Shown here in pieces: positions 1,070-31,764 of a stretch of DNA of 64,000 bases (positions are counted from its first letter, which is position 1; every line of letters starts with the position of its first letter). Position numbers and translations under genes: made by a program. The DNA is taken from positions 124,001-188,000 of the forward strand of contig NZ_QUOK01000005.1 in NCBI RefSeq assembly GCF_003390325.1, read 5' to 3'. Source of the DNA: Rhodohalobacter sp. SW132. Its GTDB lineage: Bacteria; Bacteroidota; Rhodothermia; Balneolales; Balneolaceae. A model generated the notes under the pieces. That model saw only the letters and a list, made by a program, of their open reading frames with translations, did not search any database and had not been told where the DNA came from.

Positions 1070-4000
1070 ATGCCATCATTGAAAAAACTGATCCTCATTC
1101 CCCTGATGTCTCTGTTTCTGGGGAGCCTGCTCATCGAGACTTTATACGCACAGTATTTCTATTTCGGAAAAAATCGTGTGCAGTATGAACGATTCGACTG
1201 GCGCTTTATAGAGACGGAACATTTCGATATCTATTATTACGATTCGAAAAATTACCACCTTGCCCAGTTTACTGCCGAGGCGGTTGAATCATCCCTGATT
1301 CAATTGCAAAATGATTTTGGCGAACAGCTCACTGACCGGATTCCGGTTATTATTTACGATTCACACAGTGACTTTTCGCAGACCAATGTTGTGCAGCTGC
1401 CTACAGATGCACAGGGAATTGGCGGGGTTACCGACAAGTTCAAAAACCGGATGACCCAGCCATTTATGGGAGATTATGCCGATTTCAGGCGCACCATACA
1501 GCATGAGCTCCTGCACGCCTTTATTAACGATGTTTACTATGGCGGAAGCGTTCAGTCGATCATGCAAAATAATATTCAGCTCAGGTTCCCTCTCTGGTTT
1601 GAAGAGGGTCTGGCTGAGTACCTGGCTCTGGGATGGGATACACAAACCGATATGTTTATGCGGGATGCAATATTAAACAATTACCTCCCGCCAATCCCGC
1701 GGCTTCAGGGATTCTTTGCTTATCGGGGTGGCCAGTCGTTCTGGTATTATATTGAAAACCAGTATGGACGACCAAAAATCACTGAAATACTACAGCGAAT
1801 TAAGCTTACCCGAAATGTTCAGCAGGCGATTACACAATCCCTTGGCATCGGTATTGAGGAACTTTCCGACCGCTGGAAAGAGTTTTATCGGCAACGCTAT
1901 TTCCCTGAAGTAGCGGAGCGGCAATCGCTTCGTGCAGCTGCTACCCAGCTAACATCACGTAACCAGAGAAGAGCATACAACACAAGTCCCGCAATTTCCC
2001 CGAATGGCGATCGGATTGCCATGATTTCAAATCGCAGGGGTGTTTTTGATGTGATTGTTATTGACGCAAACACCGGAAACCGGCTTAAAACGTTGATCAG
2101 CGGGTCAGACAGCCCCATGTTTGAAGAGCTGAACATCATGAATCCAAACCTTTCATGGTCTCCGGATGGGTCCAGAATTGCGCTTTCAAGTGCATCACAA
2201 GGGCAGTACAATTTAGCAATCGTAGATTATGAGAGCGGTAACTCCACAACTACCCGTTTCCCAAGTCTTGATGCTATAAACTCCGTATCATGGTCACCGG
2301 ACGGCACCAAAATAGCCTTTGACGGAAACATCGGTCCCTATCAAAGCATTTTTGTATACGATCTCGAAACCGATGATTTTCAAAATCTGACTGGTGATGT
2401 TTTCACTGATAAGGAGCCGGCCTGGGGAAGTGACTCAGAAACCGTATACTTTGTATCAAACCGTGGCAGTAACACAACACCGCATACGTTTCTTGCGGGA
2501 TACTCCGCTGTAATCAGCGATGATTTCTTTGAAACAGATTTATACGCCGTTAACATCAATACCAATCGTATTGAGAGATTAACCAACACACCTCTCTGGT
2601 CAGAAAGTCAGCCAACAGCTACACGCGATGGACGGCTTGTGTTTGTATCGGATCAGAACGGTATCCCAAATATTTATGAGTATGATTTAGACAGCCGGTC
2701 AGTATATCCTTTAACAGATATGCAATCGGGTGTTATGCAGATATCTATTTCTGCAGATGGTACACGGCTTGCATTTAATGCACTTAATGAAGGTGCGCCT
2801 GATATTTTCGTGATTCGCTCCCCCTTTTCACGGCGGATGGATCGACAGCTCACACCCAATGCGTGGGCTCAACAGCGGGCCGAACAATCTCATGCAGAAC
2901 GTGTACCCGCTATAGCTCATGCGAGGGAACTCATTGCAAACTCTCCGAGTGGCAATCAGCTCGTTAGCCGTGCCTTACCAGCTACAGTTGAACCGCCACA
3001 AAGAGAAAGAGATGAGGATGAAGAAAGGGAAGAAACCAGAACGGATCGGGTTGATTTCCGAAACTACCAGTTTGGCGAAGCTGTTGTGCGCGATACAACA
3101 CTTGAACTAAGAGACGATCCGCGAAATTTCGAACCGGAGGATAATGTAACCGAAGATGGACTTTATCGCCCGAAGGAGTACCGCTTACAGTTTTCTCCGG
3201 ATATCAGTTATGCCGCCGGCCAGGTGAATACATTTACCGGTTCATCCGCCTTTGCTTTCGTAACACTTAGCGACCTGTTTGGGGACCATCAGATAGCCGT
3301 TGGTTCTGATCTCACCTTTGACCTTCGAAACAGTGATTACCTAATTCGATATGGTTATTTGAGGAACAGAACCAATTTCTTTGCCTCTTTCAGCCACCAG
3401 TCACGAAATTATCAGTATTTCACCGGCGAGCTGTTCCGCTTCAGAACATTAAGCATGTCGGTTGATTTTCAATACCCGCTGAACCGTTATCAGCGAATCG
3501 ATTACGGGATTTCAGGGATTGGAATTTACAGAGATTTCAGTTCGGTAAGATTCAGAGGCACACAAAATGCCGAGAATGACTCGAATTACTTCCTCTATCC
3601 GCAGGTTACGTACACCGGAGACTTTACGATACCGCAGCCAGGTGGAATTACACCCGGAGGCGGAAGCAGGTATTCCCTGCAGCTGGCGGGAAGCCCTCCA
3701 TTTATGGCTGATTCGCCCCAATTTGCAACCCTTTTAGGAGATTACCGGCGCTATTTTGATCTCGGCAACCGAACCTCATTCGCTTTCAGAGGATCCGGTG
3801 CCTATTCCATCGGCCGTGATTCGCAAACCTTCTTTATGGGCGGTATGCTTGGCTGGATCAATCAGCGATGGAGTGATGCCGAAATTCCATTTGAACGGCT
3901 GGCTGATACCTTTTTCACACTGCCGGCGACTCCGCTTCGGGGTCACGAATTCAACACCACGTTTGGTGATCGATTTTCACTCATCAATGCTGAATTCAGA

Positions 4001-24518: not shown

Positions 24519-25685
24519 TCAAAATGGGTACGCCCGAAGGTCTCCCAGCTCCGTAACGATGTAGATTTCCCGGTTTGAGAAATCGATATCAAATATCGGT
24601 TTTAACTCTATCTCCTGATCAGAATCGAGCCGATAGGTGTGAGTTAATTCTCCCTCTCCATTGAACCGGTAAATCTGAATCATTTCATGTTCGGACGCAA
24701 GAAATAGGTCCCCATCCGGCCCCATTACACCGGCATTAAAGTAATCCAGCCCGATTCTCGAACGGATATCAGCCCGCTGCATCCGCTCCATCGTTTGAAA
24801 AAAGTGATCTGTCATTTTCTCGAATTCTGGAATCTTTGAAAGATCCGTTTCCCACAGTTTTTCTCCGTTCATTCGGTATTGCGCTATCCTGGGAAGCGAA
24901 GCGTAGACAAGCTTCAGCTGATCCGGATTTGACGGATTACTCACCGGAAAAACATTTGCGCGGTAAAATCCGGGGATCTCACCGTTCAGGATATCATTCC
25001 GAATTTCCTCGTTATCCAGCGTAAATGCTGAACCTTCCGGAATTTCCCCAACATCAGCTTTGAATTCACCCGACCAGTCATACAGGCGATAGACAGATTC
25101 AGCAGACGCTCCGGCTTGAACCGGTGAGAGCAACACCTCATCATCAGCGGTGATGTGCGGCTGATTTGTCAGAGTCGGCACGATAATTTGAGATGTTGTA
25201 ACCGGTGGCGACGGAACCGATGGAATGTAGCCGATCTCGCCATAATTGAACACAGAGTCGTATTCACCATCCTTCAAATAACGATGGATTAAGAATTGAC
25301 CCGTATCCACAATGTAGAGGTAGTTTTCGGTCAAATGAATATGGCTGACCCATTGAATTTCTCCCGGACCGCGTCCCACCCTTCCGAATTCTCTCACGAT
25401 TTCACCTGCGGGATTCAACATCAATACGCTGCCATTTGCTGCATCATACACAAACAGATTTGAAGAGTTATCAAACCTGATAAAATTAGGAACCGTGATC
25501 AGATTCTCCTCGTGGCTGATAAAAGTCCGGTACTCATCCAGAGTCACAATATCCGGACCTAATTCTTCTGTTTCTTCGGAAGTACATCCTGTCCAAAAAA
25601 CAAAGCTCAATGCGAGTAAAATTGATGGAAATAAACATCGAATTACAGTCCACTCCGAAAAGATCACCTGACATAGCCTACTCAT
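24519..25685 (-). CDS. 6-bladed beta-propeller lipoprotein, third gene of the BlaI/M56 operon
   Basis: The ATG at 25685 gives 388 residues with a lipoprotein signal (FWTGC, Cys34) and overlaps the M56 gene's stop by 8 bases; a longer frame back to 25808 lies wholly inside the M56 gene. The body has propeller signatures: FIRFDNSSNLFVYDAANGSVLMLN, GEIVREFGRVGRGPGEIQWV and AGVMGPDGDLFLASEHEMIQIYRF. The GR-GRGPGEF/I element is shared with the related proteins at 29.1-31.8 kb. Function of these surface or periplasmic propellers is unknown. Translational coupling to the sensor protease suggests it is part of the sensing system or its target. Confidence 0.85.
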   Translation of the reverse strand: MSRLCQVIFSEWTVIRCLFPSILLALSFVFWTGCTSEETEELGPDIVTLDEYRTFISHEENLITVPNFIRFDNSSNLFVYDAANGSVLMLNPAGEIVREFGRVGRGPGEIQWVSHIHLTENYLYIVDTGQFLIHRYLKDGEYDSVFNYGEIGYIPSVPSPPVTTSQIIVPTLTNQPHITADDEVLLSPVQAGASAESVYRLYDWSGEFKADVGEIPEGSAFTLDNEEIRNDILNGEIPGFYRANVFPVSNPSNPDQLKLVYASLPRIAQYRMNGEKLWETDLSKIPEFEKMTDHFFQTMERMQRADIRSRIGLDYFNAGVMGPDGDLFLASEHEMIQIYRFNGEGELTHTYRLDSDQEIELKPIFDIDFSNREIYIVTELGDLRAYPF

Positions 25686-27443: not shown

Positions 27444-27477
27444 TCTACAACATTAGAGTGTTTTCTACGAATGTAGA
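27444..27477 (-). promoter_or_regulatory. Predicted BlaI operator (two boxes) over the blaI promoter
   Basis: Box 1 (27444-27457) is TCTAC-AACA-TTAGA, one base off symmetry. Box 2 (27464-27477) is a perfect TCTAC-GAAT-GTAGA. Their centres are 20 bp apart, about two helical turns. On the minus strand box 2 contains TACATTCG (27468-27475), close to the Bacteroidota -7 consensus TAnnTTTG, 27 bases before the blaI start. The half-site TACA/TGTA pattern matches known BlaI/MecI operators. Confidence 0.72.
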
Positions 27478-27774
27478 GTAATTGAATTAAAAAGTAAAAT
27501 AAATTTCTCGATTCTGTGGTCTTTTACTGGATGTTGGTTCATGAGGTTTTATCTTTTGTCCCGCTTCTGGTCCTGTGGTGTCTTCCATATTGGTTCGGAA
27601 TTATAAGCTCCGTCAGTGACAAATAAGTGCTTATTGCGAAGACGGAAGATCGCGGATCGGGATCCGCTATGACGTTTTAAAGGAAAGTGTATTTTTTACA
27701 ACTTCCAGTCTTCTCGGTTCGGGGGTCTGGGTTGAGGTTTGAAATGAGGGAGTATTTATTCAACTTCTGGTCTT

Positions 27775-27793
27775 CTCGGTTCGGCGAACCGAG
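27775..27793. repeat. REP-like hairpin after the DUF4837-type gene, with a partial upstream copy
   Basis: An 8-bp stem (CTCGGTTC/GAACCGAG) with loop GGC lies 7 bases past the stop of the minus-strand gene at 27801, and resembles the hairpin at 12946. A direct repeat of its flank (CAACTTCxxGTCTTCTCGG) occurs 62 bases earlier, at 27699. The gap 27478-27774 otherwise holds only a 7-bp palindrome (GCGGATC-GG-GATCCGC, near 27650-27670) and no gene. Confidence 0.45.
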
Positions 27794-27800
27794 GTACGAT

Positions 27801-28904
27801 TCACTGAGTGGCAGCAAAATCGGGATTAAATTTGCCCCATGTTGAATCGCTGGCAAATGTGCGGCCCATCGCCTGGAACTGGCGTACGAATCGCCGTTTA
27901 TTTACACGGGGTGCAAACTGTGCGTACTCTATCATAAAAACCCTTCGCGTTTCCGGATCGTAATAGGTGAAATGGACAAACGGTCCGCCCATAAAATCAT
28001 TTGTCATTCGCCATATGCCCATTGTTTCATAACCAGTGAGCCGACTTCCTGTACTGAATTCCTGAGTTTTTACCGCCTCCCTGTAGTCCGTTTCCACGTA
28101 AGAACTATCCCGCTCTCCCTGCACCAAAAATTGCATCAAAGAATCCCTGGTGCTGTTAATCCATTCCGGATTGATAAAATCACCATGCTCCACATTATCT
28201 TTCCACCAGGCCCACATCCACCGGTTGTTGTCGGGCAGATATCGGCGAAACATTACCGATTGTGTGGAGTCGAACAGCTGAACGTAATCGTGCTGCATCC
28301 GCACGCTCCATCCGTGATTTTCCCAGAGTGAATCGGCCAGTGCAACCTGTTCACCTCTTCTATAGATTTCTCCTGTCCGATAGTTGATCTCCCTCTCTTC
28401 CAGATGTGAGAGCAGTTCATCGCTGCTGTTCCTGATTTTTTCGGCAAGACGTTCATCGGATGTGGAGGTCAAAACCAGGGTCCACTGTTCTCTCGCCCAC
28501 CGATCCTGCAGAGGAAAGGCAAAGCTCTCACCCAGTTCCACTCGCTGCCGGACTTCGGATCCGAGCATCCCACCCACAAGCTGTGATGTATTTGTCTGCT
28601 CATTCAGCGGTGCTGCAATAATTATATTTCTGAACCTTTTCAGTTCATCCAGTTCCTGGTTGCTTTCAAAATCTCTGAAGATAAGCGTATAGGCGGGTTC
28701 CCAGGGTTGAGGTACAGTCTGTATGTACCGCCCAAATGTTTCGCGAATGGCGTCAGCCGTTTCACTTTCCCACTGGCTGGAATCCATCACCACAATCACT
28801 TCATCAACCGGTCCGATCGCTTTTTTTCGATAGTCTCCGCTGCAGGCAGAAGCAAAAAGTATCAAAAGTAATGTATATGAACAGAATTGAATATAATTTG
28901 TCAT
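27801..28904 (-). CDS. DUF4837-type lipoprotein
   Basis: The ATG at 28904 gives 367 residues with a lipoprotein signal (LFASAC, Cys21). The open frame extends to 28982, but that stretch holds the operator boxes, so the shorter start is preferred. The sequence resembles DUF4837: DEVIVVMDSSQWES, then FGRYIQTVPQPWEPAYTLIF, FRNIIIAAPLN, and a conserved end with RVFMIEYAQFAPRVNKRRFVRQFQAMGRTF. The function of the family is unknown; it is typical of Bacteroidota envelopes. Two BlaI-type boxes with the same geometry as at blaI precede it, so I infer it belongs to the BlaI regulon although it is not in the blaI operon. Confidence 0.85.
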   Translation of the reverse strand: MTNYIQFCSYTLLLILFASACSGDYRKKAIGPVDEVIVVMDSSQWESETADAIRETFGRYIQTVPQPWEPAYTLIFRDFESNQELDELKRFRNIIIAAPLNEQTNTSQLVGGMLGSEVRQRVELGESFAFPLQDRWAREQWTLVLTSTSDERLAEKIRNSSDELLSHLEEREINYRTGEIYRRGEQVALADSLWENHGWSVRMQHDYVQLFDSTQSVMFRRYLPDNNRWMWAWWKDNVEHGDFINPEWINSTRDSLMQFLVQGERDSSYVETDYREAVKTQEFSTGSRLTGYETMGIWRMTNDFMGGPFVHFTYYDPETRRVFMIEYAQFAPRVNKRRFVRQFQAMGRTFASDSTWGKFNPDFAATQ

Positions 28905-28914
28905 ACGTTTAATC

Positions 28915-28948
28915 TCTACAATTATAGAATAACTTCTACAAATGTAGA
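28915..28948 (-). promoter_or_regulatory. Predicted BlaI operator (two boxes) over the DUF4837-type promoter
   Basis: Box A (28915-28928) is TCTAC-AATT-ATAGA, one base off symmetry; box B (28935-28948) is a perfect TCTAC-AAAT-GTAGA. Centres are 20 bp apart, exactly as at blaI, and again the imperfect box is the one nearer the gene. On the minus strand box B contains TACATTTG (28939-28946), a perfect TAnnTTTG -7 element 34 bases before the chosen start codon. Confidence 0.72.
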
Positions 28949-29247: not shown

Positions 29248-29802
29248 TCAAACCGGGCCAGAAGCTGTCCCTCCGGACTGATAACCCGCCACTGATAGGT
29301 GGAAGTCACTGTCTGTGATGGTCGCCACCCACAGGCGATCCTCGTCATCCAGCTCCATGGTATGAACTGCAGGCCAGGTTTCGGGCATTTCATATTGTGC
29401 GAGAGACCGTTCCCGAAATCTGCTAAGTTCAAAAATATTCATATCCAGTTCACTCTTTGTGACTGACTCATACCATACTTCTTCAAATTCCCCTTCACTG
29501 TCATAAATCCTGATCAGGAAATCGTCGGTCCAGTTTGTGTAGAAACGCCCATCTCTTGAAAAGGAAACCAGTGAACTCCGAGTAAACGGCATGGGAAAAG
29601 GGAGTTCAAGTCGATCTGTTTCAATCGGGAAATAGAAAGGAAACCGATCCACAACAAGAAGAGGAGCTGAAACTATTTCTCCATTTTTTGATAACGGGTA
29701 GAAGGCTTCGAGTGGATCTCCTTCCTGTCTGTATGCTGAAAAATGCTGTTTATGAAGGATGTATTGATTCGTATGTGTAGCGATCAAATTGCGGCCTCTC
29801 AT
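29248..29802 (-). CDS. Middle fragment of the broken propeller gene
   Basis: This 184-codon frame starts at an ATG overlapping the preceding stop (TAATG) and has no signal peptide. It covers central propeller blades (SLVSFSRDGRFYTNWTDDFLIRIYDSEGEFEEVWYE; PETWPAVHTMELDDEDRLWVA). Its last 20 or so codons (after ATITDS) are out of the ancestral frame. If translated it would be coupled to the fragment before it; I regard it as part of the pseudogene. Confidence 0.5.
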   Translation of the reverse strand: MRGRNLIATHTNQYILHKQHFSAYRQEGDPLEAFYPLSKNGEIVSAPLLVVDRFPFYFPIETDRLELPFPMPFTRSSLVSFSRDGRFYTNWTDDFLIRIYDSEGEFEEVWYESVTKSELDMNIFELSRFRERSLAQYEMPETWPAVHTMELDDEDRLWVATITDSDFHLSVAGYQSGGTASGPV

Positions 29803-30329
29803 TACGCCATGAGAGTATCTCCCGAATTATTAAAATTGCCTTGCAAAAGCATATCCCTGATGTGAGAAAATTCCTGAGTGGAAAATTGACCCATTTTTTG
29901 AAGCCTGCCATCGAAAATGTACAGCGTATCTTGCACTATCTGCATGGATGAAATTGCCTCATACTCTCCAGGCCCTCTTCCTTCACGGATAAATTTGTCA
30001 ATAAATTCTCCGTCACCATCAAATACATATACGCCAACCGTTCCGGGTATCGTGGCTGCAATAAAAACCCTGTCATTTTCATCTACAGCCATTTCGCTTA
30101 TATACCCCCTCATAAACACCTCATCATTACTTTCAAATACCGTTTCACGAATTAACTCAACCGTATCGGGCAGAGCTCCTTCGGCGGCTGCAATGAGCGT
30201 CAGGTTTTCGATATCCTTTAGATGTTCAGGGAGTTCAGGTGATGCAGAACTCTCTTGTTTCTCACTACAGCCAATCAGAATCACAAATATCAGGAAAACT
30301 GAAAGTTGTATGAATTTTTGTGTATTCAT
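29802..30329 (-). CDS. N-terminal fragment of the broken propeller gene
   Basis: A 175-codon frame with a lipoprotein signal (LIGC, Cys21) and the first blades of a 6-bladed propeller (YISEMAVDENDRVFIAATIPGTVGVYVFDGDGEFIDKF followed by IREGRGPGEYEAISSMQI). The GRGPGEY element is the family hallmark. It stops at 29802 where paralogs continue for over 200 residues. It may still be exported as a truncated lipoprotein. Confidence 0.55.
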   Translation of the reverse strand: MNTQKFIQLSVFLIFVILIGCSEKQESSASPELPEHLKDIENLTLIAAAEGALPDTVELIRETVFESNDEVFMRGYISEMAVDENDRVFIAATIPGTVGVYVFDGDGEFIDKFIREGRGPGEYEAISSMQIVQDTLYIFDGRLQKMGQFSTQEFSHIRDMLLQGNFNNSGDTLMA

Positions 30330-30337
30330 AACCTGAA

Positions 30338-30541
30338 AACCTGAGTTCGATTCTTAAATTTATCCTATATCAACAAAAACAGTCCAAAAAGGGCGTTCGT
30401 TAAGTTAATTCGTCAACAATTATGTCATGCCGGACTCCGATCCGGCATCTCCTGCCTTGTTAAGGACTGGAGATCACGCATCGAGTGCGAGATGACACCC
30501 TTTTTGGACTGTTTTTGACATTTTTAAATCGAACTCAGGTT
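30338..30541. repeat. 204-bp inverted-repeat (MITE-like) element between propeller genes
   Basis: The outer ends AACCTGAGTTCGATT (30338-30352) and its perfect complement (30527-30541) are inverted. A second, 20-bp perfect pair lies inside (30374-30393 and 30498-30517, core ACAGTCCAAAAAGGG). The middle holds a further 7-bp palindrome, TGCCGGA-CTCCGA-TCCGGCA. No reading frame is present. The whole element can fold into one long hairpin. It sits between the broken and the intact propeller genes and may be mobile or act as a terminator. A related lone end lies near 55865. Confidence 0.75.
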
Positions 30542-30555
30542 GAAAGATTACCTGG

Positions 30556-31764
30556 CTATGAATCCTCTACCTCAATACTGTATCTCACCACCTGCTGCAA
30601 ACCGGTATCAGGATCTGTTTCACGTGTGAAGAGGTAATCATCCCGAATAGTGGCTATCGCCGTTCCATTTGGCAGTTCAAACCGGGCCCTTAAATCACCC
30701 GACTCTTCCAGGACCCACCATTCGTTTATTTCTTTATCCTTTGCATAAACCGAAATCCAGATGCGGCCAGTGTTGTCGGTATACATTTGTTGCAGTGCCG
30801 GCCAGGTATTGGGTAGCTGCATGGATTGAACTGCATCCTGAAGTTGTTCATGATTGTCAACGCTGTTTAGAGCATCATTCCGGGTTAAATTTCGCTTTTC
30901 GAATGGATAATAAACTGCGGACTGATACTCACCCGCTGAGCTAAAAGTTTGGATCAAAAATTCTGAAGAATCAGCCAGATAAATCATGTCATTGTCTGAC
31001 ATTGTCATGATTTGCCTGTTTGCAAAAGGCGGGGGAATAGTGAACCATTCAGTAACAATGTGTTCCGGTTCAGAAATTTCAAAAAACTTTTCAGGTTGTG
31101 CCTGATGGTCTCCGTTCCAGCGGTAGTACTTCCTCACTCCGGTCTCATCAGGATTTTCCCGGTATAATAGCGGAGAAGAACGTGAGGATAATATCAAAGA
31201 TCCTTCACTGCTAATTGAATGAAATCCTGGATTCATAAAATTGGGTTCCGGTAAATTCTCCCAGCTGTCACTCCCTATTATTATTGCAGAATCAAATACC
31301 GGTAAAGATTGTCCATCTGAACCCAGTTCAAATAAATTTATTCTGCGACCATTTGGATCATTAACATAGAGGTGGTTTTTGTAAATCTCCATACCCCCGA
31401 CCCACTGGAATTCTCCCGGTCCGCTCCCCTCCCGACCGATACGCCCCATGTACTGGCCATCCTCTTCAAAAATATGAACGGAGTGTCGTTGTCTATCCCC
31501 AATATATACCCTGCCAAACCGGTCGGATCGTACGGAGCCATAGGAGGCAATCGGTTCATCATCTGTATCGCCAAAAACCTGTTCGCGTGTAAGTCTCAAC
31601 GTATCTGCAGAAGAGATATCAGCGGAGGAATAGATTGTGACATTCTCCATTTCCAGGATATGGGGAGGCACATCAGCGAAAGTTTCTTCGTCTGAGCTAC
31701 ATGATGTGAAGATGCAGACAGTTGAGATCAGACCGATTAGCAGACTTTTATTCGTTTTTATCAT
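30556..31764 (-). CDS. 6-bladed beta-propeller lipoprotein
   Basis: A 402-residue lipoprotein (IFTSC, Cys22). Propeller features include GSVRSDRFGRVYIGDRQRHSVHIFEEDGQYMGRIGREGSGPGEFQWVGGMEIY, written here only to show the spacing of YIGD, HIFEEDG and GSGPGEF, and NTGRIWISVYAKDKEINEWWVL near the end. It is the intact paralog of the pseudogene at 29094-30329 and a relative of the propeller in the BlaI operon. Such proteins sit in the periplasm or at the surface; ligands are unknown. I see no BlaI-type box in its upstream region. Confidence 0.85.
   Translation of the reverse strand: MIKTNKSLLIGLISTVCIFTSCSSDEETFADVPPHILEMENVTIYSSADISSADTLRLTREQVFGDTDDEPIASYGSVRSDRFGRVYIGDRQRHSVHIFEEDGQYMGRIGREGSGPGEFQWVGGMEIYKNHLYVNDPNGRRINLFELGSDGQSLPVFDSAIIIGSDSWENLPEPNFMNPGFHSISSEGSLILSSRSSPLLYRENPDETGVRKYYRWNGDHQAQPEKFFEISEPEHIVTEWFTIPPPFANRQIMTMSDNDMIYLADSSEFLIQTFSSAGEYQSAVYYPFEKRNLTRNDALNSVDNHEQLQDAVQSMQLPNTWPALQQMYTDNTGRIWISVYAKDKEINEWWVLEESGDLRARFELPNGTAIATIRDDYLFTRETDPDTGLQQVVRYSIEVEDS

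Follow-up and report, generated by a model that had tools for sequence, protein, structure and literature searches.

A BlaI/MecI-type repressor and an M56 membrane protease encoded in the window, the 64,000-nt stretch of the Rhodohalobacter sp. SW132 genome analysed here, appear to form an autoregulated switch with one extra target, a duplicated gene for a DUF4837 lipoprotein. We place the probability of this reading at about 75%. Paired operators before blaI and before the DUF4837 gene define a predicted regulon of these two promoters, which is well supported. BlaI-M56 pairs are common in the Bacteroidota, and our literature search found no paper stating the signals or targets of such pairs in this phylum; with its two-promoter regulon readable at near-zero background, the locus described here constitutes a clean test case.

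Operator pairs in the window and in the genome

The earlier note had claimed four TCTAC-N4-GTAGA boxes arranged in two pairs, with centers 20 bp apart, a perfect distal box and a proximal box with one mismatch, and all coordinates were confirmed (Table 1). Four boxes were observed against 0.97 expected, and none of 100 shuffles reached this number. In pattern searches of the whole genome (5,083,342 bases), the perfect box TCTACN4GTAGA was found in two copies, both at these promoters (about 5.6 single perfect boxes expected from base composition), and the 34-bp pair, with up to three mismatches allowed, was found only at the blaI and DUF4837 promoters (0.0004 pairs with ≤1 mismatch expected genome-wide from base composition). 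The 53-bp promoter segments of the two genes are 72% identical. A 30-nt direct repeat (87%) lies at 27693-27784, inside the gap between the DUF4837 gene and blaI.

Table 1. Genes and operator boxes of the BlaI-M56 locus (window coordinates)
Feature	Coordinates	Strand	Characteristics
6-bladed propeller lipoprotein	24519..25685	-	overlaps M56 gene end; likely start 25685
M56 (BlaR1-type) membrane metalloprotease, 464 aa	25678..27072	-	HENAH motif; putative ExbD/TolR-like periplasmic domain, ~residues 305-372
BlaI/MecI-type repressor, 123 aa	27069..27440	-	PF03965, 4.5e-27; MecI 1okr, 5e-10
Proximal BlaI box, blaI promoter	27444..27457	-	TCTAATGTTGTAGA, 1 mismatch; conserved TCTAA half-site
Distal BlaI box, blaI promoter	27464..27477	-	TCTACATTCGTAGA, perfect; holds TACATTCG (27475-27468)
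DUF4837 lipoprotein, 367 aa	27801..28904	-	PF16125; lipobox ASAC; duplicate of trp-operon copy G000:C2:496138-497088
Proximal BlaI box, DUF4837 promoter	28915..28928	-	TCTATAATTGTAGA, 1 mismatch; conserved weak half-site
Distal BlaI box, DUF4837 promoter	28935..28948	-	TCTACATTTGTAGA, perfect; holds -7 element TACATTTG (28946-28939)

Promoter overlap and conservation in the order

As had been proposed from the window, each distal box overlaps a TAnnTTTG-like -7 element, to which TACATTTG (DUF4837) is an exact fit and TACATTCG (blaI) is one change off. A search of 129 genomes of the order returned 46 pairs with at most two mismatches, of which 43 lie before a BlaI ortholog, two before the DUF4837 duplicate and one at a contig edge. 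Pairs with three mismatches in relatives were taken as chance, because the reversed-pattern control was equally frequent; only L166 was inspected among these. The expectation that boxes would recur at orthologous promoters thus held for the blaI orthologs (43 pairs), but not for the ordinary DUF4837 orthologs, which carry no boxes. The -7 element of the relatives' blaI promoters sits within the distal box (box 1). The proximal-box mismatch is conserved, base 5 being A or T rather than C (TCTAA/TCTAT) in 41 of the 43, and 40 of the 43 promoters have a TTG located 19-21 bp upstream of the TA in the TAnnTTTG-like element. The search fixed the box columns and the 20-bp spacing, the invariance of which is partly by construction; the search pattern did not include the TTG, the A at base 5 of the proximal box (box 2) or an AAACA-like spacer. 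The promoter elements agree with the published Bacteroidota consensus (PMC7366714). Repressor bound at this position would be predicted to keep RNA polymerase from both the -7 element and the start point. The operator rule, TCTACN4GTAGA-N6-TCTAAN4GTAGA overlapping the -7 element, is strict and applicable across the phylum.

The blaI promoter of the window is an exception, in that it has no TTG element and carries TACATTCG, and may therefore be weak; the DUF4837 promoter of the window is closer to the consensus.

The operator in other families of the phylum

A search of 296 genomes of the phylum also detected the operator (≤1 mismatch) in other families, in which the reversed pattern never occurred. 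Of 18 such loci inspected, ten carry the operator immediately upstream of a BlaI ortholog. The remaining eight, all from one genus (g70), have it before a gene for a lipoprotein of ~140 aa, followed by blaI and an M56 gene with a TonB C-terminal domain; one of these lipoproteins gave a sub-threshold MORN_2 match and another no match, and no second box pair was seen at the g70 loci. The arrangement of lipoprotein gene and blaI seen in the window is thus paralleled at these loci, with another lipoprotein in place of DUF4837, and the operator recurs across the phylum instead of being peculiar to the window. This recurrence in distant relatives points to a role in envelope sensing that has nothing to do with penicillin. 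Among relatives, the repressor and the operator are fixed, and the sensor domain and the lipoprotein neighbor vary. At L180, L181, L184 and L191-L194, in other families, a third TCTAC-N4-GTAGA box lies ~28 bp further upstream, over the -33 region.

These loci bear on the most serious alternative, according to which the BlaI operon begins with the DUF4837 gene, with the main promoter there and blaI-M56-propeller also read from a weaker inner promoter. The g70 layout with its single operator pair, the more consensus-like DUF4837 promoter and the lack of a called minus-strand terminator between DUF4837 and blaI give this arrangement a real chance, although we hold it at somewhat less than even odds: a 360-bp gap separates the two genes, and blaI has an operator pair of its own, as in all Balneolaceae relatives.

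Duplication of the DUF4837 gene

DUF4837 is encoded in almost every genome of the order (37 of 39), and its conserved copy sits after trpA, without boxes. A TTTACCTTTGTAGA match before DUF4837 in G012 (L020/L039/L148) was rejected as an operator, as it falls inside the 3' end of the upstream trpA. The protein encoded in the window matches PF16125 with 169 bits and has a lipoprotein signal, with an invariant Cys21. Its start at 28904, which the earlier note had fixed from the box geometry, fits well, the ATG lying 10 bp past the boxes (18 bp in the relative L136). In the tree, the boxed copies of the window and of a second genome (G003) group together with full support within the genus, on branches longer than those of the trp copies. 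On this phylogeny, the boxed DUF4837 is therefore a recent genus-level duplicate, the operator of which was gained or arose with the duplicate. The proposed regulon of blaI-M56-propeller and a DUF4837-type gene consequently needs to be narrowed: both promoters are boxed and no other in the genome is, but the target is the genus-level duplicate (window and G003) and not the DUF4837 family as a whole.

In a structure model of the DUF4837 protein (pLDDT 87), the C-terminal domain resembles PsbP, Mog1 and LpqN (Z up to 15) and the N-terminal domain weakly resembles GH84 and BcsB domains; a sequence search against solved structures gave nothing useful. The modeled fold alone gives no function. The word DUF4837 appeared in no paper in our literature search, in which the family is without a described function, and the operator pair provides a first regulatory context for this near-universal lipoprotein family of the order.

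It is improbable that the boxes before DUF4837 are the leftover of a rearrangement at the blaI locus, without regulatory effect on DUF4837. Such relics do occur, a decayed BlaI operator and a blaI-start remnant being found before a propeller lipoprotein gene at L166 (G072:C12, about 3000-3105). However, the boxed DUF4837 of G003, at the same OmpH-side location, has only 64% protein identity with the window copy, and the boxes, the spacing and the weak half-site are nonetheless kept, in DNA that differs between and around the boxes. Furthermore, the -7 element is placed where the DUF4837 start needs one.

The M56 sensor and the propeller lipoprotein

The blaI and M56 genes overlap by ATGA. The M56 domain match (59 bits, cut-off 31) includes the HExxH motif, HENAH, at residues 176-180, and the protein is conserved among relatives up to ~residue 270, the rest being variable. 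The earlier statement that the sensor lacks a penicillin-binding domain was borne out by a domain search, in which the 180 C-terminal residues gave an ExbD-like match only. For the window protein, the match to Pfam ExbD is weak (24.2 bits, below the cut-off of 25.4); eight of the nine M56 sensors compared gave an ExbD-like match, with a score of 48 bits in one relative, and the top PDB profile matches of the sensor domain are ExbD chains (E 0.02-0.05). By these matches, the C-terminal part of the window M56 looks like an ExbD/TolR periplasmic domain. A single-sequence structure model of M56 (pLDDT 40) was unusable, and no sensor fold was drawn from it. The periplasmic domain of ExbD contacts peptidoglycan transiently (PMC10771500), so, by analogy, a cell-wall cue is plausible for the M56 sensor.

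Propellers of the same family are encoded behind ExbD-type M56 genes in four genomes. At L178 (1037-1354, G002:C132), a gene for a free-standing ExbD-like lipoprotein lies ahead of a homologue of the window's propeller gene, which suggests that the propeller works together with the ExbD-like sensor domain. Further genes for 6-bladed propeller lipoproteins lie upstream of DUF4837, at 29802-31764 of the window. At L119 (1235-8041), L130 (2084-8399), L127, L133, L114, L116 and L128, tandem genes of ~220-280 aa lie behind M56. Each opens with the hinge motif of M56 (NFSLTKKRLxMM) and continues with a hydrophobic stretch and repeats similar to MORN_2. The M56 genes of L119 and L133 themselves stop short of the hinge, an arrangement that looks like a sensor half divided among several cassettes.

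The repressor and protease families are those of BlaI and BlaR1, but an ordinary beta-lactam-sensing BlaR1/BlaI system is very unlikely here, given the sensor without a penicillin-binding domain, the lack of a beta-lactamase gene at either controlled promoter and the free variation of the sensor domain among relatives.

Association of the operator with BlaI

The repressor matches PF03965 (Penicillinase_R) with 95 bits (cut-off 22.6) over residues 3-115, covering the whole protein, and, as judged from sequence only, its promoter carries dyad operators of the BlaI/MecI type. The recognition helix (TTxATLLKRM-type) is conserved in the BlaIs of boxed loci, as is a FASFF motif aligned with the MecI cleavage region (N101-F102). 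Among 58 family genomes sampled, the box pair was present in all 27 that have the BlaI ortholog and in 1 of the 31 that lack it (p ~1e-15), in agreement with the earlier assignment of the boxes to BlaI; by this count, no ortholog deviates from the operator pattern. The sole exception is G003, which has the boxed DUF4837 and in which no BlaI or M56 of the window type was found; its assembly is 89% complete, and the contig breaks off ~135 bp past the boxed DUF4837, at the place expected for blaI.

The genome encodes a second BlaI (G000:C13:118190-118534, L149), with another recognition helix and its own operator, TACTAAGTTATTAGTA; this second BlaI-M56 system, with its operator, is kept across the family (L149, L137, L150). 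Use of the boxes by another regulator, such as this second BlaI, is extremely improbable, as that protein has an operator of its own and is present in G001, where the boxes are absent, and as the boxes track the first BlaI.

Proposed mechanism

In the autoregulated switch that we favor, a BlaI dimer would bind each 14-bp dyad, so that two dimers would lie on the same face of the DNA, separated by about two helical turns. With the distal box covering the -7 element and the proximal box the transcript start, bound BlaI would shut both promoters. M56 would sense an envelope cue, using its ExbD/TolR-like periplasmic domain and probably the propeller lipoprotein as well, and active M56 would cleave BlaI, such that blaI-M56-propeller and the duplicated DUF4837 would be made together. 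The DUF4837 lipoprotein may act as an envelope-maintenance or feedback partner.

A broader scheme can be put forward tentatively, as somewhat doubtful. BlaI, the 34-bp promoter-embedded operator and the M56 core would be the constant parts of a phylum-wide modular envelope switch, in which the sensor half (ExbD-like, MORN_2 or TonB_C, split into tandem cassettes in some genomes) and the partner lipoprotein (DUF4837 duplicate, MORN-like or propeller) are exchanged. If this is true, each lineage tunes the same BlaI-M56 switch to a different envelope cue.

Comparison with known systems

The BlaI/BlaR1 and MecI/MecR1 systems of Staphylococcus and Bacillus licheniformis share with the window a winged-helix dimer repressor and an M56 protease in the same operon, and the mechanism proposed here is the one known for BlaI/BlaR1. 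Classical BlaI/MecI dyads are TACAnnTGTA-like, and the distal box of the DUF4837 promoter reads TACAnnTGTA. On domain matches, the window repressor belongs to the BlaI family, whereas its sensor seems to have an ExbD/TolR-like domain in place of the penicillin-binding domain of BlaR1 and MecR1. The targets also differ, with propeller and DUF4837 lipoproteins instead of a beta-lactamase or PBP2a.

A very small BlaI regulon with paired dyads has been described before in Clostridium thermocellum, in which DAP-seq of BlaI_0696 and BlaI_1845 identified two ordered inverted repeats per target, the targets being their own operon and very few others, an unknown gene included (PMC8457756). The paired dyads and the tiny regulon are common to both cases, but the clostridial half-site, GTCTAT, is different, and neither a DUF4837 link nor such a promoter overlap is found there. 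Further close counterparts are the other Bacteroidota BlaI-M56 loci (L114-L133, L179-L214), which have the same 34-bp operator, recognition helix and blaI-M56 order, but differ in that their M56 proteins carry MORN_2, TonB_C or tandem ExbD domains, DUF4837 is absent and, in one genus, another lipoprotein gene heads the locus.
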